Assembly: GCF_001306135.1 (NCBI RefSeq)
Contig: NZ_LGKP01000021.1
Location: 1-64,000 of the forward strand
DNA from: Herpetosiphon geysericola
GTDB lineage: Bacteria > Chloroflexota > Chloroflexia > Chloroflexales > Herpetosiphonaceae
Reading direction: 5' to 3'
DNA: 64,000 nt
This document shows positions 58,532 through 64,000 of the stretch, piece by piece. A model generated the notes under the pieces. It was given only the letters and a program-made list of their open reading frames with translations. It did no database searches and was not told the DNA's origin. Every line of letters begins with the position of its first letter. Within the stretch, counting starts at the first letter, position 1. Both the position numbers and the translations under genes were made by a program.

Positions 58532-58993
58532 ATGGAATTACACATCCGCCGCTATCAAGCAAGCGATGCAGCGATTGTTTGGGAACTGCACAATCTGGGG
58601 TTGCAGTTGATGGGTGCCCATCTTGGCAATGGGCCACGCGATGCAGATGTTTTGGCGGTCGAAGATTATTATCTGACCACAGGTGGCGAATTTTTGGTTG
58701 GCGAAGTGGCTGGGCTGGTGGTGGTTATGGGCGGTTTGTTGCCAACTGGCGAGCGCGAGGCCGAAGTCAAACGTATGCGGGTACACCCTGATTTTTGGCG
58801 GCGCGGCTTGGGCGAGCAGCTGTTGCTTGCGCTCGAAGTGCGCGCACGCGAATTGGGCCTAACCCGCTTGCATTTGGATACCTCGGTGCAACAAGCACCC
58901 GCCCAAAAGCTCTATCTCAAACATGGCTATCGCGAAATTGCTCGTGGCCAGATTGCACAGCTTGAGCTTATCTATTATGAAAAATGGCTATGA
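58532..58993 (+). CDS. GNAT acetyltransferase
   Basis: A 153-residue GNAT-fold acetyltransferase. The acetyl-CoA pyrophosphate loop is in RVHPDFWRRGLGEQLL (about 83-98), followed by the motif B part LHLDTSVQQAPAQKLYLKHGY. Substrate unknown. It lies 152 bases upstream of the peptide cluster on the same strand; a separate promoter there suggests it is not part of that operon, though read-through is possible. Confidence 0.88.
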   Translation: MELHIRRYQASDAAIVWELHNLGLQLMGAHLGNGPRDADVLAVEDYYLTTGGEFLVGEVAGLVVVMGGLLPTGEREAEVKRMRVHPDFWRRGLGEQLLLALEVRARELGLTRLHLDTSVQQAPAQKLYLKHGYREIARGQIAQLELIYYEKWL

Positions 58994-59079: not shown

Positions 59080-59109
59080 TAGACAACTATTAATAATTAA
59101 AAGTATACT
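59080..59109 (+). promoter_or_regulatory. Candidate promoter of the peptide cluster
   Basis: TAGACA (59080-59085) and TATACT (59104-59109) with an 18-base spacer; the -10 is identical to those of the atp and amylase promoters. Predicted start near 59116, 30 bases before the first peptide gene. The surrounding 58994-59145 is markedly AT-rich. Confidence 0.6.
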
Positions 59110-59145: not shown

Positions 59146-59244
59146 ATGAAGAAACTGACGATTCGCAAGACCGAAACCCTCAAAACGACCGCTGCGTTCT
59201 ATGCTGGTGGCTGTGGTGGCCCAATCATCATCGTTCTGCCATAA
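59146..59244 (+). CDS. RiPP-like precursor peptide 1
   Basis: A 32-residue peptide. The first 23 residues follow the family pattern MKK(I/L)xIRKxET then (L/V)KTTAAFYAG(G/S)C; the tail after Gly22 is CGGPIIIVLP. Ribosome site AAGGAG 5 bases before ATG. First of nine paralogues; its leader varies from the others mainly at synonymous sites. The tail has no Ser, Thr, Asp or Glu and has a single Cys. Putative product: a modified or cyclised short peptide released after the Gly-Gly (inference). Confidence 0.8.
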   Translation: MKKLTIRKTETLKTTAAFYAGGCGGPIIIVLP

Positions 59245-59369
59245 TAAACGTCGGCAAACCCAAAACCTCAACGAAGCAACACCTTTTCTCCTGCCTGCCC
59301 TTGCTTCAAAACCCAAACTTAAATGCCCTAAATTAAATACGATCATTTTCATTCCAATGAAGGATTTCC

Positions 59370-59474
59370 GTGAAAAAGATCACCATTCGTAAAGCTGAAA
59401 CCTTGAAAACCACTGCGGCATTTTATGCTGGCGGGTGTCATTCAGGCGGTGGTGGAATTATTGTAATTCCCTAA
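59370..59474 (+). CDS. RiPP-like precursor peptide 2 (GTG start)
   Basis: A 34-residue paralogue starting at GTG: the only upstream ATG (59357) is out of frame and AAGGA sits 6 bases before the GTG. Tail CHSGGGGIIVIP, the only one with His and a run of four Gly. The 125-base gap before it has no other ORF of the family. Confidence 0.75.
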   Translation: MKKITIRKAETLKTTAAFYAGGCHSGGGGIIVIP

Positions 59475-59589
59475 ACCTAGCAGCTAGCTACGATTTTGAA
59501 GCAACTACTCCCACATCTTGCTCCACTGCTTCAAAATAATTGAGGATGATCGTCGCACATTTAACTATCATCTTACAAGGAGCAACCCC

Positions 59590-59700
59590 ATGAAGAAAAT
59601 CATCATTCGCAAAGCTGAAACCGTCAAAACAACTGCTGCCTTCTACGCTGGTGGCTGTGGTACATCACCAATTGGCCCAGGCCGAATCCTGATTCCATAA
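59590..59700 (+). CDS. RiPP-like precursor peptide 3
   Basis: A 36-residue paralogue with leader variant MKKIIIRKAETVK and tail CGTSPIGPGRILIP. Ribosome site AAGGAG. The open frame extends 24 codons upstream, but those residues are unrelated to the family, so the ATG at 59590 is the start. Confidence 0.8.
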   Translation: MKKIIIRKAETVKTTAAFYAGGCGTSPIGPGRILIP

Positions 59701-59719
59701 GCACAACTCCACCCTCAAG

Positions 59720-59805
59720 CTATTTGCCTGCCTCTATCCTGCCTACTGCAAATAGTGCTTCAGATTTTTATTTTGGCTCATTAAACACCCCATCATTGCA
59801 ATGGG
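59720..59805 (+). other. Pair of hairpins in the spacer before precursor 4
   Basis: CTATTTGC (59720-59727) pairs with GCAAATAG (59748-59755), and CCCAT (59789-59793) with ATGGG (59801-59805) just before the ribosome site TTAGGAGTGT. The same pair recurs in the next spacer. Confidence 0.55.
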
Positions 59806-59822
59806 CTTATTAGGAGTGTCAC

Positions 59823-59936
59823 ATGAAAAAGATCACGATTCGCAAGGCTGAAACCGTCAAAACAACCGCTGCCTTCTATGCTGGTGGCTGTGGTGGCCCA
59901 ATTGGTCCAGGCCGCGGTGGCGTGCTAATCCCATAG
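59823..59936 (+). CDS. RiPP-like precursor peptide 4
   Basis: A 37-residue paralogue; tail CGGPIGPGRGGVLIP. The inner PIGPGR is shared with copy 3, showing tail exchange or common descent. Ribosome site TAGGAG 6 bases upstream. Confidence 0.8.
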   Translation: MKKITIRKAETVKTTAAFYAGGCGGPIGPGRGGVLIP

Positions 59937-59949
59937 GTTTTGCTTGTTG

Positions 59950-60040
59950 CTATTTGCATTTTTCGCTCTTTGCTCCCGCTGCAAATAGTTCCACAGATTC
60001 CCACATGAATCGATCTGAGCCTTCCCATTAACGCAATGGG
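59950..60040 (+). other. Pair of hairpins in the spacer before precursor 5
   Basis: CTATTTGCA (59950-59958) pairs with TGCAAATAG (59980-59988), and CCCATT (60024-60029) with AATGGG (60035-60040), placed 5-15 bases before the ribosome site. The layout copies that of the previous spacer while the loop sequences differ. Confidence 0.55.
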
Positions 60041-60057
60041 TTTATTAGGAGTGTGTT

Positions 60058-60153
60058 ATGAAAAAGCTTGCAATTCGCAAAGTTGAAACCCTCAAAACCA
60101 CCGCTGCCTTCTATGCTGGCGGCTGCGGCGGCCCACCACGCCAAATCCCATAG
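60058..60153 (+). CDS. RiPP-like precursor peptide 5
   Basis: A 31-residue paralogue with leader MKKLAIRKVETLK; tail CGGPPRQIP (9 residues). Its first 47 bases are identical to those of copy 6, implying a recent duplication. Ribosome site TAGGAG. Confidence 0.8.
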   Translation: MKKLAIRKVETLKTTAAFYAGGCGGPPRQIP

Positions 60154-60195
60154 GCTTGGCTGTTTGAATTATTTATTTGGGTTAAGGAGTGTGTT

Positions 60196-60288
60196 ATGAA
60201 AAAGCTTGCAATTCGCAAAGTTGAAACCCTCAAAACCACCGCAGCATTCTACGCTGGTGGCTGCGGCGGCCCTCGCCCGCTTCCATAA
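60196..60288 (+). CDS. RiPP-like precursor peptide 6
   Basis: A 30-residue paralogue, tail CGGPRPLP (8 residues, among the shortest). Only 42 bases separate it from copy 5; spacer hairpins are absent from here on, and ribosome site AAGGAGTGTGTT is kept. Confidence 0.8.
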   Translation: MKKLAIRKVETLKTTAAFYAGGCGGPRPLP

Positions 60289-60329
60289 GCTTCTCGGCTT
60301 AATTGATCAGCAACTTTTAGGAGTGTGTC

Positions 60330-60422
60330 ATGAAAAAGATCACCATTCGCAAGACTGAAACCCTAAAAACCACCGCCGCTTTCTATGCTGGCAGCTGTGG
60401 CCCAATCTTCGCCCAACCCTAG
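60330..60422 (+). CDS. RiPP-like precursor peptide 7
   Basis: A 30-residue paralogue with Gly-Ser instead of Gly-Gly before the Cys; tail CGPIFAQP, the only one with Ala, and one of two with Phe. Ribosome site TAGGAG. Confidence 0.8.
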   Translation: MKKITIRKTETLKTTAAFYAGSCGPIFAQP

Positions 60423-60465
60423 TTTATTCGCCGAAATCTAGATTATTGCTAAAGGGGGATTTCCA

Positions 60466-60579
60466 ATGAAAAAGATCACGATTCGCAAGGCTGAAACCCT
60501 GAAAACGACCGCTGCATTCTATGCTGGCGGCTGTGGTGGCCCAATCATCATCAGCCCATTCCCAGTGCTTGAACCATAG
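60466..60579 (+). CDS. RiPP-like precursor peptide 8
   Basis: A 37-residue paralogue; tail CGGPIIISPFPVLEP, which begins like the tail of copy 1 (CGGPIII) and then extends. Ribosome site AAGGGGG followed by ATTTCCA, similar to the spacer of copy 2. Confidence 0.8.
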   Translation: MKKITIRKAETLKTTAAFYAGGCGGPIIISPFPVLEP

Positions 60580-60612
60580 GTTTTTTGGCTCGACGGTGGG
60601 TAAGGAGGATCT

Positions 60613-60729
60613 ATGAAAAAGATTAAGATTCGCAAAGTCGAAACCCTTAAAACAACGGCGGCCTTTTACGCAGGCTCCTGCGACCCAATTGGCCCCGGTG
60701 ATCCCATTCCCATCCTCGTTGGTGCTTAA
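60613..60729 (+). CDS. RiPP-like precursor peptide 9
   Basis: A 38-residue paralogue, the longest and most divergent: Gly-Ser before Cys, tail CDPIGPGDPIPILVGA, the only one not ending in Pro and with two Asp. Ribosome site AAGGAGG. It is 73 bases upstream of the PqqD-M50 gene. Confidence 0.8.
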   Translation: MKKIKIRKVETLKTTAAFYAGSCDPIGPGDPIPILVGA

Positions 60730-60802
60730 AACTGCTTGGTGAGTGAGCGAGCAGGAGAAGGTTTTGGTTAATCCCAAACACTAGAAGGGTGGGCCTGGCG
60801 CT

Positions 60803-62107
60803 ATGACAAGTATGGTTGCTGCCTCGACGAATCCTTTGTATACAGCATCAGCCTATGTTGATGTGTATCCATTTGTTCGGCAAGAGGAGAGCGAAGAAGA
60901 ATTATTAATTGGGCGCGTCGATACCAATAACTTCATCATGCTGCCCAAAGAAGCCGTTGAAATCCTCGATGATTTGGCACACGGCAAAACCATTGGCGAG
61001 GCACAAGCCCTGTATGCTGAACGCTATGGTGAAATTCCCGATTTGGTCGATCTCCTCGAACAATTAGAATCCGAAGGCTTTGTCCAGCCGCTCCAATCGG
61101 ATACTGTGCGCTTTGGCCAACAAGCGTCAACCAATGCAGCTCAAGCTGTTGCAACCACCCCCAATCAACCGCGCACTGTGCGCTTTCACTTCACGTTTTT
61201 TCCGGTGCGGCTAGCCCAACTCTTGTTCAGCCCAATTGCGTTGGCTTTGTATGCGATTGTGATTGGTGGTGCGGCGGCGATTGTGCTGTCCCAACCATCG
61301 ATTGTGGCAGGCTGGCGGGCAATGGTCGTCGATGAGCAAATGGCGCTGTTTACCTTAATTATTATGCTTCATGGCTTTGTCATCACCTTTTTTCACGAGC
61401 TTGGCCATGCAGTGGCCGCCCGATCGCGCGGCATTGATGTGCGCTTTGGGATTGGGCGACGCTTATGGGTAATTGTGGCCGAAACCGATATGTCGGGAAT
61501 TTGGTCGATTAAGCGCAATCTGCGCTTTTTGCCAATTCTGGCGGGCATGGTGGTCGATTTGCTCAGCGCCGCGATTATGATTTACTTGGCGTTTATGCAC
61601 CAGCGCCAAATCATTAATCTTTCGGATTTTGGCTATGTTTTGGTGCGGGCATTTATGTGGAGCTACCTGCTGAATTTGCTGTTTCAGCTGTATTTCTTCG
61701 TGCGCACCGATATTTATTATTTCCTCTCAACTTGGTTACGTTGCTCAAACCTCATGGGCGATACCGCTAATTATATGATCAATCAGTTCAATCGTTTAAT
61801 GGGTCGCCCAGAATCACATAACCAAGCGGCAATTCCCGAACGAGAGCGCACAATTATTAAGCGCTATGCTTTTTTCTGGCTCATCGGGCGGGTGCTTGCT
61901 TTCTATTCGTTGTTCTTCTTAACCCTGCCAATTTTATGGAGCTACGCCAGCATTTTGTTTGAACGCATGTTTGGTAGTTCAAGCAACAACCTGCAAGTGC
62001 TCGATTCAATTTTGGCAGCCATTTTGATCTTTATCAGCCAAGCCGTTGGAATCTTCCTTTGGCTTTGGAGCTTGATCCGCAGAAAGGTTAGCGTCGATGA
62101 CATCTAA
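60803..62107 (+). CDS. Membrane M50 metallopeptidase with N-terminal PqqD-like domain
   Basis: A 434-residue protein. Residues about 20-98 look like a PqqD-type winged helix (FIMLPKEAVEILDDLAHGKTI, AERYGEIPDLVDLLEQLESEGFV), the fold of many RiPP leader-recognition elements. Six or so membrane helices follow. The peptidase motif is FFHELGHAVAARSRG (His198, Glu199, His202), and LAGMVVDLL (247-255) supplies the second-motif Asp252; FVRTDIYYFLS and VAETDMSGIW match the putative-peptide-zinc-metalloprotease subgroup of M50. Family knowledge: such peptidases occur in RiPP loci (e.g. YydH, daptide MpaP). Inferred role: binds the conserved leaders and cleaves them at or in the membrane. The upstream ribosome site is weak (AGAAGGGTGGG); ATG 60812 is an alternative. 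Confidence 0.87.
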   Translation: MTSMVAASTNPLYTASAYVDVYPFVRQEESEEELLIGRVDTNNFIMLPKEAVEILDDLAHGKTIGEAQALYAERYGEIPDLVDLLEQLESEGFVQPLQSDTVRFGQQASTNAAQAVATTPNQPRTVRFHFTFFPVRLAQLLFSPIALALYAIVIGGAAAIVLSQPSIVAGWRAMVVDEQMALFTLIIMLHGFVITFFHELGHAVAARSRGIDVRFGIGRRLWVIVAETDMSGIWSIKRNLRFLPILAGMVVDLLSAAIMIYLAFMHQRQIINLSDFGYVLVRAFMWSYLLNLLFQLYFFVRTDIYYFLSTWLRCSNLMGDTANYMINQFNRLMGRPESHNQAAIPERERTIIKRYAFFWLIGRVLAFYSLFFLTLPILWSYASILFERMFGSSSNNLQVLDSILAAILIFISQAVGIFLWLWSLIRRKVSVDDI

Positions 62108-63983
62108 GAGCAAGCAATTAATCGTCTGGGTGGGCAATACTGGCGCGCAACGAACCGAAGCCGCCCAAGCATGGCTCGCTCAACAATCTGCGGCACGTAC
62201 CTGGCTGCTGAGCATGAATCGGGCCAATTTGGGCCATTGGGCTGGGCTGAATAGCTTTGTTAGCTCGCTCTTGCCCGAAATTAAAGCCCAAGCGCCTGAA
62301 CTTTTGGTCAAATATGATTATGAATTGGCCTTAGTGCTGCCCCAATTGCAACGTGAATTGGCCGTGCGCAACCCAAGCCTGACCGATATTAGCAATCCTC
62401 AAGAACGCACGCGCAATTATGCAGCCGATCGCGCCTTTCGGATTGTGCAAGGCTTGATCGATATGCTGCATGAGTTTCGCCAACATACGCCCGACCAAGC
62501 TTGGGTGATTGTCTGCGATCAGTTTGATCAGGCTGGCTCGTTGGTCACGATGTTTTTCAAAGAATTATTGCGCCGCGCCGACCAACGCTTTGGCTTGACG
62601 ATTGGCTTTTTGATTGAGCCAAACGCTGAGTTACTCGCCGACTATCAAAGTTGGGCCGAGCATGTCGAGGTTATCAATGGCGCTTGGCAAGCTGATCAGC
62701 CAGTTGCTGCATTAGATCCTGCTGAGGCTAAGCAACAGCTTGATGAGCTAGAGCGCGACCACACCTTTGATCCAATTGAAATTGAATTGCACTTGCCGCA
62801 ATTGATTCAGCTGGCAACCGCTGCCAACGAGCCACGCAAGCGGCTTGGCTTTATGCACGAAGGGCTTTCGATCTGCTCAACGCGCGGCTTGTATGCAGAT
62901 GCGCTATATTATGGCGAGCCGTTGCAAGTTGAAATGGAGCGCGATTTCCCTAAGAGCGTTGATTTTCGGCTCAGCGCTTATTTGAAGCTCTACAATTGTT
63001 ATATTGGGCTAAAACAGGCCGAGCCAGCTTTGGCAATTGCCGAAACTGCGGTGAGCATTACCGATAATCCAGCCCGTTTATTTAGCTGGTATTACTTGAT
63101 TGCGATGATTCATGGGCGCTTTGCAGTGCCCCGCGATTATGATCAGGCAGAGCATTATCTTAATTTGGGCATTGAAGCGATTCAGCAGGCTGATATTCCG
63201 GCCCAAGAAAAACTCTTCCAATCATCGTTTAATCGCAATGGCTTGGCATTAATTCGCCACTTCCAAAAACGGCCCTTGGAAGCAATTGAAATTTGCCAAG
63301 AATGTTACAAACAGCTAGAAACTGGCTTGGATACTGAGGAACATAAATTACATCGCTCGGTGTTGCTGTATAACATTGCCCAAGTATACGATTCGCTCAA
63401 AGATTACCAGAATGCGCTGCACTATTACACCTTGACGATTGAAATGGACCCCAACTACGCCGAATATTATAATGAGCGCGCTAATATTTATCTGCAAATT
63501 GGCGATTATGCAGCAGCCGAGCGTGATTATCGTCAATCGATCGAGCTTAGCCCGCCGTATACCGAAGTGTGGACCAACCTTGCTCAATGTTACCAATTGC
63601 AAGACGAGTTTGAGCAAGCAGTTGGCGCATTTAGCCGAGCGCTAGATATTGATCCCAAAAATGTGGTGGCGCTCAACCATCGGGCCGAATGCTACGAAGC
63701 TTTGGGCCAAACTCAGGCTGCGATCGACGATTATAGCGATAGCCTGAGGCTCAAACCAAGCGACTCAGGCATTGTTGCCAACCGCGCAATTCTCTATTAT
63801 GAGCTTGGCGATTTGGTTGCCTCGTTGGCCGATTTGAACACCGCGATTGAATTGCAGCCCGATTTGGCTGAGCTGTATGAAAATCGCGCGGTAGCCTTGG
63901 AAGCGCTCGAACGCTATCCAGAAGCTGAGCACGATCGCCAACAAGCGATATTGTTGGCCAACGCCCACGAAGTTAATGCCTAA
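62097..63983 (+). CDS. TPR protein with degenerate NTPase-like N-terminal domain
   Basis: A 628-residue cytoplasmic protein, start overlapping the M50 stop by 11 bases (AAAGG upstream), so cotranslated. The N-terminal 195 residues resemble an AAA/STAND ATPase fold but the P-loop position reads VWVGNTGAQRT without the Gly-Lys-Thr, while a Walker B-like VIVCDQFDQ is present. From about 240 to 628 there are roughly ten TPR-like units, the last six canonical (YYNERANIYLQIGDYAAAERDY, ALNHRAECYEALGQTQAAIDDY). Probably a scaffold for the peptide maturation or export complex (inference). Confidence 0.85.
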   Translation: MTSKSKQLIVWVGNTGAQRTEAAQAWLAQQSAARTWLLSMNRANLGHWAGLNSFVSSLLPEIKAQAPELLVKYDYELALVLPQLQRELAVRNPSLTDISNPQERTRNYAADRAFRIVQGLIDMLHEFRQHTPDQAWVIVCDQFDQAGSLVTMFFKELLRRADQRFGLTIGFLIEPNAELLADYQSWAEHVEVINGAWQADQPVAALDPAEAKQQLDELERDHTFDPIEIELHLPQLIQLATAANEPRKRLGFMHEGLSICSTRGLYADALYYGEPLQVEMERDFPKSVDFRLSAYLKLYNCYIGLKQAEPALAIAETAVSITDNPARLFSWYYLIAMIHGRFAVPRDYDQAEHYLNLGIEAIQQADIPAQEKLFQSSFNRNGLALIRHFQKRPLEAIEICQECYKQLETGLDTEEHKLHRSVLLYNIAQVYDSLKDYQNALHYYTLTIEMDPNYAEYYNERANIYLQIGDYAAAERDYRQSIELSPPYTEVWTNLAQCYQLQDEFEQAVGAFSRALDIDPKNVVALNHRAECYEALGQTQAAIDDYSDSLRLKPSDSGIVANRAILYYELGDLVASLADLNTAIELQPDLAELYENRAVALEALERYPEAEHDRQQAILLANAHEVNA

Positions 63984-64000
63984 AGCCTGAGTTGTTGGCG

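Follow-up and report, generated by a model that had tools for sequence, protein, structure and literature searches.

The 64,000-nucleotide window analysed here (Herpetosiphon geysericola, RefSeq assembly GCF_001306135.1, contig NZ_LGKP01000021.1, positions 1 to 64,000 of the forward strand) contains, close to its right end, a cassette consisting of an array of short precursor peptide genes, a gene for an M50 protease fused to a PqqD-like RiPP recognition element (RRE; RiPP, ribosomally synthesized and post-translationally modified peptide), and a gene for a tetratricopeptide repeat (TPR) protein. We identified nine consecutive open reading frames (ORFs) of 30-38 codons at positions 59146-60729 of the plus strand, each preceded by a ribosome-binding site of the GGAG/AGGA type, with 18 leader residues invariant across the nine encoded peptides, in agreement with a first-pass annotation that had been made from the letters of the window alone and had proposed a combinatorial RiPP system. 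The fixed leader and differing tails that it described are apparent; its tail lengths of 8-16 residues hold if the cysteine is counted, and past Cys23 the tails comprise 7-15 residues.

The codon differences among the nine leaders are mainly synonymous (proportion of synonymous differences, pS, 0.56; of nonsynonymous differences, pN, 0.071; ratio 0.13 over all pairs), and pN/pS is 0.12-0.15 in three further Herpetosiphon genomes with 11-12 scored copies each. The leader is under strong protein-level constraint, as had been concluded from its synonymous variation. Individual tails are also kept between species, some with synonymous changes only: GGPRPLP is found in four genomes and GGPPRQIP in three. 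Thus, the array keeps its repertoire and is not hypervariable, and the word 'combinatorial' was too strong. The tails of Herpetosiphon aurantiacus DSM 785 include, for example, AAFYAGGCGGPRPLP and AAFYAGSCGPIFAQP. Across four genomes, 21 of the 24 distinct Herpetosiphon precursors end in proline, a trait that we did not see in relatives from other phyla. No curated family in NCBIfam or Pfam covers the leader, consistent with the earlier failure to recognise it; the CLI_3235 bacteriocin precursors (TIGR04065) scored 14.3 bits, from one precursor only, against a cutoff of 26. Rfam gave no structured RNA match at the locus. The search with a hidden Markov model (HMM) of the leader that the annotation had suggested, run against a 400-genome Chloroflexota sample, recovered Herpetosiphon and no convincing match outside it, with one extra partial match (G242, E 0.005). 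The HMM is less sensitive than the M50 search, because it missed distant members (for example, in G021 and G024), and the same leader is present in other phyla, in relatives reached via the M50 gene.

The protein encoded downstream of the array combines, in its structural model, a leader-binding fold with an M50 protease, as anticipated (Table 1). Pfam detects PqqD in this protein at an E value of only 0.12; at the level of the predicted fold, it matches a leader-bound RRE, with the lasso-peptide RRE TbiB1 ranking best and those of TigE, ThcOx, TruD and sactipeptide enzymes ranking lower. The protease part has both the HExxH motif and the site-2 protease (S2P) fold, and H198, E199 and H202 are invariant in 25 relatives. 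Among curated families, the daptide intramembrane metalloprotease (NF041824) comes closest, with 42 bits against a cutoff of 300.

The third protein, predicted to be cytosolic, was modelled with high confidence (predicted local distance difference test, pLDDT, 90.8) as a TPR superhelix (Z 23) behind an alpha/beta domain, and TPR folds fill all matches of the whole-model structure search. AAA_16 is weakly detected in 7 of 16 relatives (best E 1.5e-5). The Walker A motif (GK[ST]), which is intact in a STAND/AAA_16 ATPase, is absent from all 33 members of the alignment; an Arg near this position is invariant. Judging from these sequence features, we call the N-terminal domain a putative pseudo-STAND, that is, a degenerate AAA/STAND-like domain; its invariant charged residues are R19, E76, E103, R106, R112, R115, R159 and R160.

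Table 1. Coordinates of the cassette features in the window
Feature	Position	Strand	Remarks
Promoter-like site TAGACA-18-TATACT, 5' of the precursor 1 ORF	59080..59109	+	Consensus scan, 10/12 matches; site count not above shuffles; weak
Precursor 1	59146..59244	+	MKKLTIRKTETLKTTAAFYAGGCGGPIIIVLP
Precursor 2	59370..59474	+	GTG start; MKKITIRKAETLKTTAAFYAGGCHSGGGGIIVIP
Precursor 3	59590..59700	+	MKKIIIRKAETVKTTAAFYAGGCGTSPIGPGRILIP
Precursor 4	59823..59936	+	MKKITIRKAETVKTTAAFYAGGCGGPIGPGRGGVLIP
Precursor 5	60058..60153	+	MKKLAIRKVETLKTTAAFYAGGCGGPPRQIP; tail kept in three species
Precursor 6	60196..60288	+	MKKLAIRKVETLKTTAAFYAGGCGGPRPLP; tail kept in four species
Precursor 7	60330..60422	+	MKKITIRKTETLKTTAAFYAGSCGPIFAQP; tail kept in four species
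Precursor 8	60466..60579	+	MKKITIRKAETLKTTAAFYAGGCGGPIIISPFPVLEP
Precursor 9	60613..60729	+	MKKIKIRKVETLKTTAAFYAGSCDPIGPGDPIPILVGA
RRE-M50 intramembrane protease gene, 434 aa	60803..62107	+	Pfam M50 3.9e-7; AlphaFold model pLDDT 82
RRE (PqqD-like) domain, residues 17-99	60851..61099	+	VIA-align Z 9.9 to TbiB1 with leader peptide (5v1v)
Site-2 protease domain, residues 126-377, HELGH at 198-202	61178..61933	+	VIA-align Z 7.5 to 3b4r
TPR protein gene, 628 aa	62097..63983	+	Overlaps M50 gene by 11 nt
N-terminal alpha/beta domain, degenerate AAA_16/STAND-like, without Walker A lysine	62097..62711	+	AAA_16 in 7/16 relatives; alignment of 33 members

Relatives of the RRE-M50 protein, gathered by profile search, come from Herpetosiphon, heterocystous and other cyanobacteria, Corallococcus, and genomes or metagenome-assembled genomes labelled Thermoanaerobaculum, Rubrobacter, Tahibacter, Fodinicola and others; plasmid records yielded distant M50 relatives only, mostly from Streptomyces. 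The unit of precursor, RRE-M50 and TPR protein occurs at 28 loci, distributed over at least six bacterial phyla, and the co-occurrence of the precursors with the PqqD-M50 gene is strict in many genomes. At the loci from this profile search, the widely conserved neighbours of RRE-M50 are short precursors together with either the TPR protein or a ThiF enzyme, and no others. Among all distinct RRE-M50 loci, the TPR gene lies directly downstream in 28, a ThiF gene lies upstream in 13, and both are present in none; neither partner is present only in two distant relatives of the Bacteroidota type and in a fragment at a contig edge. A profile of the ThiF partner had no match in any TPR-type locus. 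Furthermore, the TPR-type M50 proteins form a clade (support 99/98), except for one long-branch sequence from Fodinicola, and diverge in parallel with their TPR proteins (Mantel r 0.89 over 19 dereplicated loci, with 0 of 2000 permutations as high). The cassette is rare in the sampled groups, the TPR type being found in 3 of about 290 Cyanobacteriales, and RRE-M50 in 5 of 193 Myxococcota. In Rhizonema (L049, 9249-11274), the TPR gene is split in two ORFs, representing a decaying copy or an assembly error.

All TPR-type loci examined have a precursor upstream; the one exception is L053, whose contig breaks off about 400 bases short of the M50 gene. Peptides in these comparisons were chosen by leader, length or ribosome site, and not by the presence of Tyr or Cys. 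An IR..E..TT leader is common to TPR-type and ThiF-type peptides, and T-T-x(3,4)-Y-x(3,4)-C, following an IR..ET.(K/R) leader, is present in 30 of 31 TPR-type peptides and in 0 of 10 of the ThiF type. This distribution points to the RRE as the reader of the leader and to Y-x-C as a trait of the TPR branch. Cyanobacteria and Myxococcota have Cys-rich cores. Unlike the diverse Herpetosiphon array, some Nostoc cassettes (L048, 6645-7475; L054, 2387-3210) carry four near-identical precursors with CWICSNCW or CWICSSCW at the C-terminus.

The N-terminal domain of the TPR protein was found in 12 of 187 Myxococcota genomes, seven of which lack the cassette RRE-M50 (search at E 0.001; one of them, G852, gave a partial match only, without the RRE part). 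In six of these seven, a precursor-like ORF, for example MKKLTIRDTETVKTSTLLWVMP or MKKIIKVETVKSSPSFYNWICDIFDPPPTQA, lies just upstream of the TPR gene (L114, L116, L117, L118, L119 and L120; peptides of 22-45 residues); four of the six peptides keep Y-x(3,4)-C, and two have Trp there and no Cys. In the seventh genome, G852, about 1.5 kb is missing by comparison with G864, and precursor and M50 both fall within this segment. In the Chloroflexota and Cyanobacteriales samples, the domain is confined to cassette carriers, the four such Herpetosiphon genomes in the former and the three genomes with a TPR-type cassette in the latter. Since six Myxococcota genomes have peptide and TPR protein without an RRE-M50 of this family, these two constitute the minimal pair; of the partners, the TPR protein is the constant one. 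It looks central, and the M50 can be absent.

The boundaries of the cassette are given by two other Herpetosiphon genomes, G002 and G004, in which the GNAT-like gene (at 58532 in the window) and the hydrolase-like gene right of position 64000 are about 75 bp apart and the cassette is absent as a block. Because this empty site bounds exactly the precursors, RRE-M50 and TPR gene, the cassette comprises these and nothing else. Elsewhere in its genome, G002 carries a ThiF and RRE-M50 cassette with the precursor MQKVTIQIRKLEKIETTGARHAQGAG. The maturase and ABC exporter that the first-pass annotation had expected right of position 64000 did not appear among the ORFs and translations up to position 78000, which include hydrolase-like, phytoene-desaturase-like, large membrane protein, LysM/M23-like and metal-transport-like genes, none of a RiPP-like kind (names from a reading of the translations, without family scans); LanB/C/M, YcaO, lasso cyclase and radical SAM genes were likewise absent to 78000. 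Across the loci compared, there is no known maturase in or near the unit, no transporter in it, no additional conserved partner and no conserved neighbour beyond it.

Among known systems, the closest parallels are those with M50 proteases. In daptides, an RRE-dependent M50 peptidase, MpaP, is established (PMC10036551); as here, an RRE is fused to M50 (NF041824), and precursors sometimes number more than 10. RRE-dependent leader removal would be a further shared trait. However, the oxidative decarboxylase, aminotransferase, methyltransferase and DUF-RRE genes of daptides are absent here, and none of the nine precursors has the C-terminal Thr, which places the cassette outside the daptides. The M50 proteases EpeP, TglG and TmoG act in epipeptides and pearlins (PMC10885120). 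Epipeptides (EpeX/YydF with EpeP) likewise have a short precursor and an M50 membrane protease that is presumed both to cleave it and to export it, but their radical SAM epimerase and ABC transporter were not found here, and the cassette is not an epipeptide cluster. ThiF-like (MccB/PaaA-type) systems share the RRE-M50 family and the IR..E..TT leader, and differ in having ThiF upstream instead of TPR downstream and peptides without Y-x(3,4)-C. The sister cassettes of this kind (L010, 109-189 and 269-2706; L061-L068, L081, L082, L084, L085), with an IR..E..ETT-leader precursor, a PaaA-like ThiF enzyme and RRE-M50, possibly represent an uncharacterised ThiF peptide group.

The cassette falls under none of the lanthipeptide, thiopeptide or linear azol(in)e-containing peptide, lasso, sactipeptide, ThiF-type or RRNPP definitions; it has the general RiPP layout of short precursors with a conserved leader and a variable core. 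The RiPP interpretation of the first-pass annotation is supported by the precursor, leader and RRE features, but the word implies modification, and the expected maturase and exporter are neither present right of 64000 nor conserved in relatives; we use 'RiPP' as a working label, still unproven. The leader strings occur in no paper found, most subscription papers being outside the search, so that an earlier description is possible, and a literature search by architecture returned daptides, epipeptides, pearlins and ThiF systems only. The three-part unit appears undescribed. An RRE-M50 protease with a precursor array is a known kind of assembly; its combination with a pseudo-STAND/TPR protein and no maturase appears new, and the cassette is possibly a new class.

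We propose, with a probability of about one half, that the locus encodes an RRE-guided, protease-processed peptide cassette in which the pseudo-STAND/TPR protein serves as a dedicated partner in place of a classical maturase. The nine ORFs would yield precursor peptides whose shared N-terminal half, MKKxxIRKxETxKTT, would be bound by the RRE domain, and the membrane-embedded M50 would cleave the captured peptide at about KTT|AAFY, close to where the leader passes into the core. Both steps are modelled on the precedent of daptides, epipeptides and pearlins. Cleavage would release, and possibly help to export, short products, perhaps intercellular signals or antimicrobials, in which Y-x3-C is invariant and the tail is rich in Pro and Gly. 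The pseudo-STAND/TPR protein might hold or present the Y-x3-C half via its superhelix and would be the counterpart of the ThiF enzyme of the sister systems. We infer each of these activities, from leader binding, cleavage and its site to export and the part played by the TPR protein, which may modify, present or sense the peptide. Some points weigh against this proposal. The Myxococcota pairs demonstrate that some forms of the system do without the RRE-M50, and therefore processing there would be by something else or would not take place; two of the six Myxococcota TPR-only peptides have neither Tyr nor Cys; and peptide binding by the TPR superhelix is assumed from a general property of TPR domains.

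Going further, and tentatively, at somewhat less than even odds, the pseudo-STAND/TPR protein could be the first of a new dedicated family of peptide-acting proteins, either maturases or peptide-loading receptors, with its own leader-guided peptide class in at least six phyla and the two-gene peptide and TPR pair as its simplest form.

Under a rival reading, the pseudo-STAND/TPR protein would be a new peptide-modifying enzyme acting on the invariant Tyr/Cys pair, and the cassette would then be a new and complete RiPP class whose maturase had gone unrecognised. The protein has a ThiF modifying enzyme as its counterpart in the sister systems, its N-terminal domain has many invariant charged residues, Y-x-C is found only with the TPR partner, and the protein stays with the peptide when M50 is gone. 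However, the degenerate AAA_16/STAND-like domain lacks the nucleotide-binding lysine and any recognised catalytic motif, and the two TPR-only peptides without Tyr and Cys would offer no such pair, and we consider this reading unlikely.

Alternatively, the M50 could mature a secreted pheromone that the TPR/pseudo-STAND protein senses inside the cell. M50 proteases mature some pheromones that are sensed by RRNPP/Rgg-type TPR receptors, systems in which short peptides also adjoin a TPR protein, and the typical role of STAND-like domains as switches counts in favour of such a function. Peptide, protease and TPR protein form one unit here, peptide and TPR pairs occur alone, and many of the hosts are filamentous or social bacteria. 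Yet 9-13 different tails face one TPR protein, the unit is without a transporter, and Pfam scans of the TPR protein and its relatives found no helix-turn-helix or other output domain; the AAA-like N-terminal domain and the RRE on the protease further set the cassette apart from RRNPP/Rgg systems. We consider a signalling role, too, unlikely.

A true RiPP with a maturase acting in trans from elsewhere in the genome would fit the Cys-rich cores of cyanobacteria and Myxococcota, which resemble substrates of known maturases, but the cassette moves as a closed unit with no conserved neighbour beyond it in the loci compared, and we regard this explanation as very unlikely. That the short ORFs are regulatory elements of the attenuation type rather than encoding products is hardly credible: they are short and lie upstream of larger genes, but they are present in nine copies, constrained at the protein level in leader and core, conserved in other phyla and without a structured RNA family.

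Class-independent peptide searches use the RRE as a hook and then seek a maturase; here, the hook comes with a protease and a precursor array, and an apparently undescribed TPR/pseudo-STAND protein stands where the maturase would be. The exchange of ThiF for TPR on a constant leader, together with the Myxococcota TPR-only pairs, provides natural controls for the role of the TPR protein. If this protein modifies the peptides, it would represent a new enzyme class; if it senses them, filamentous and social bacteria would have in this cassette a signalling system of a new kind.

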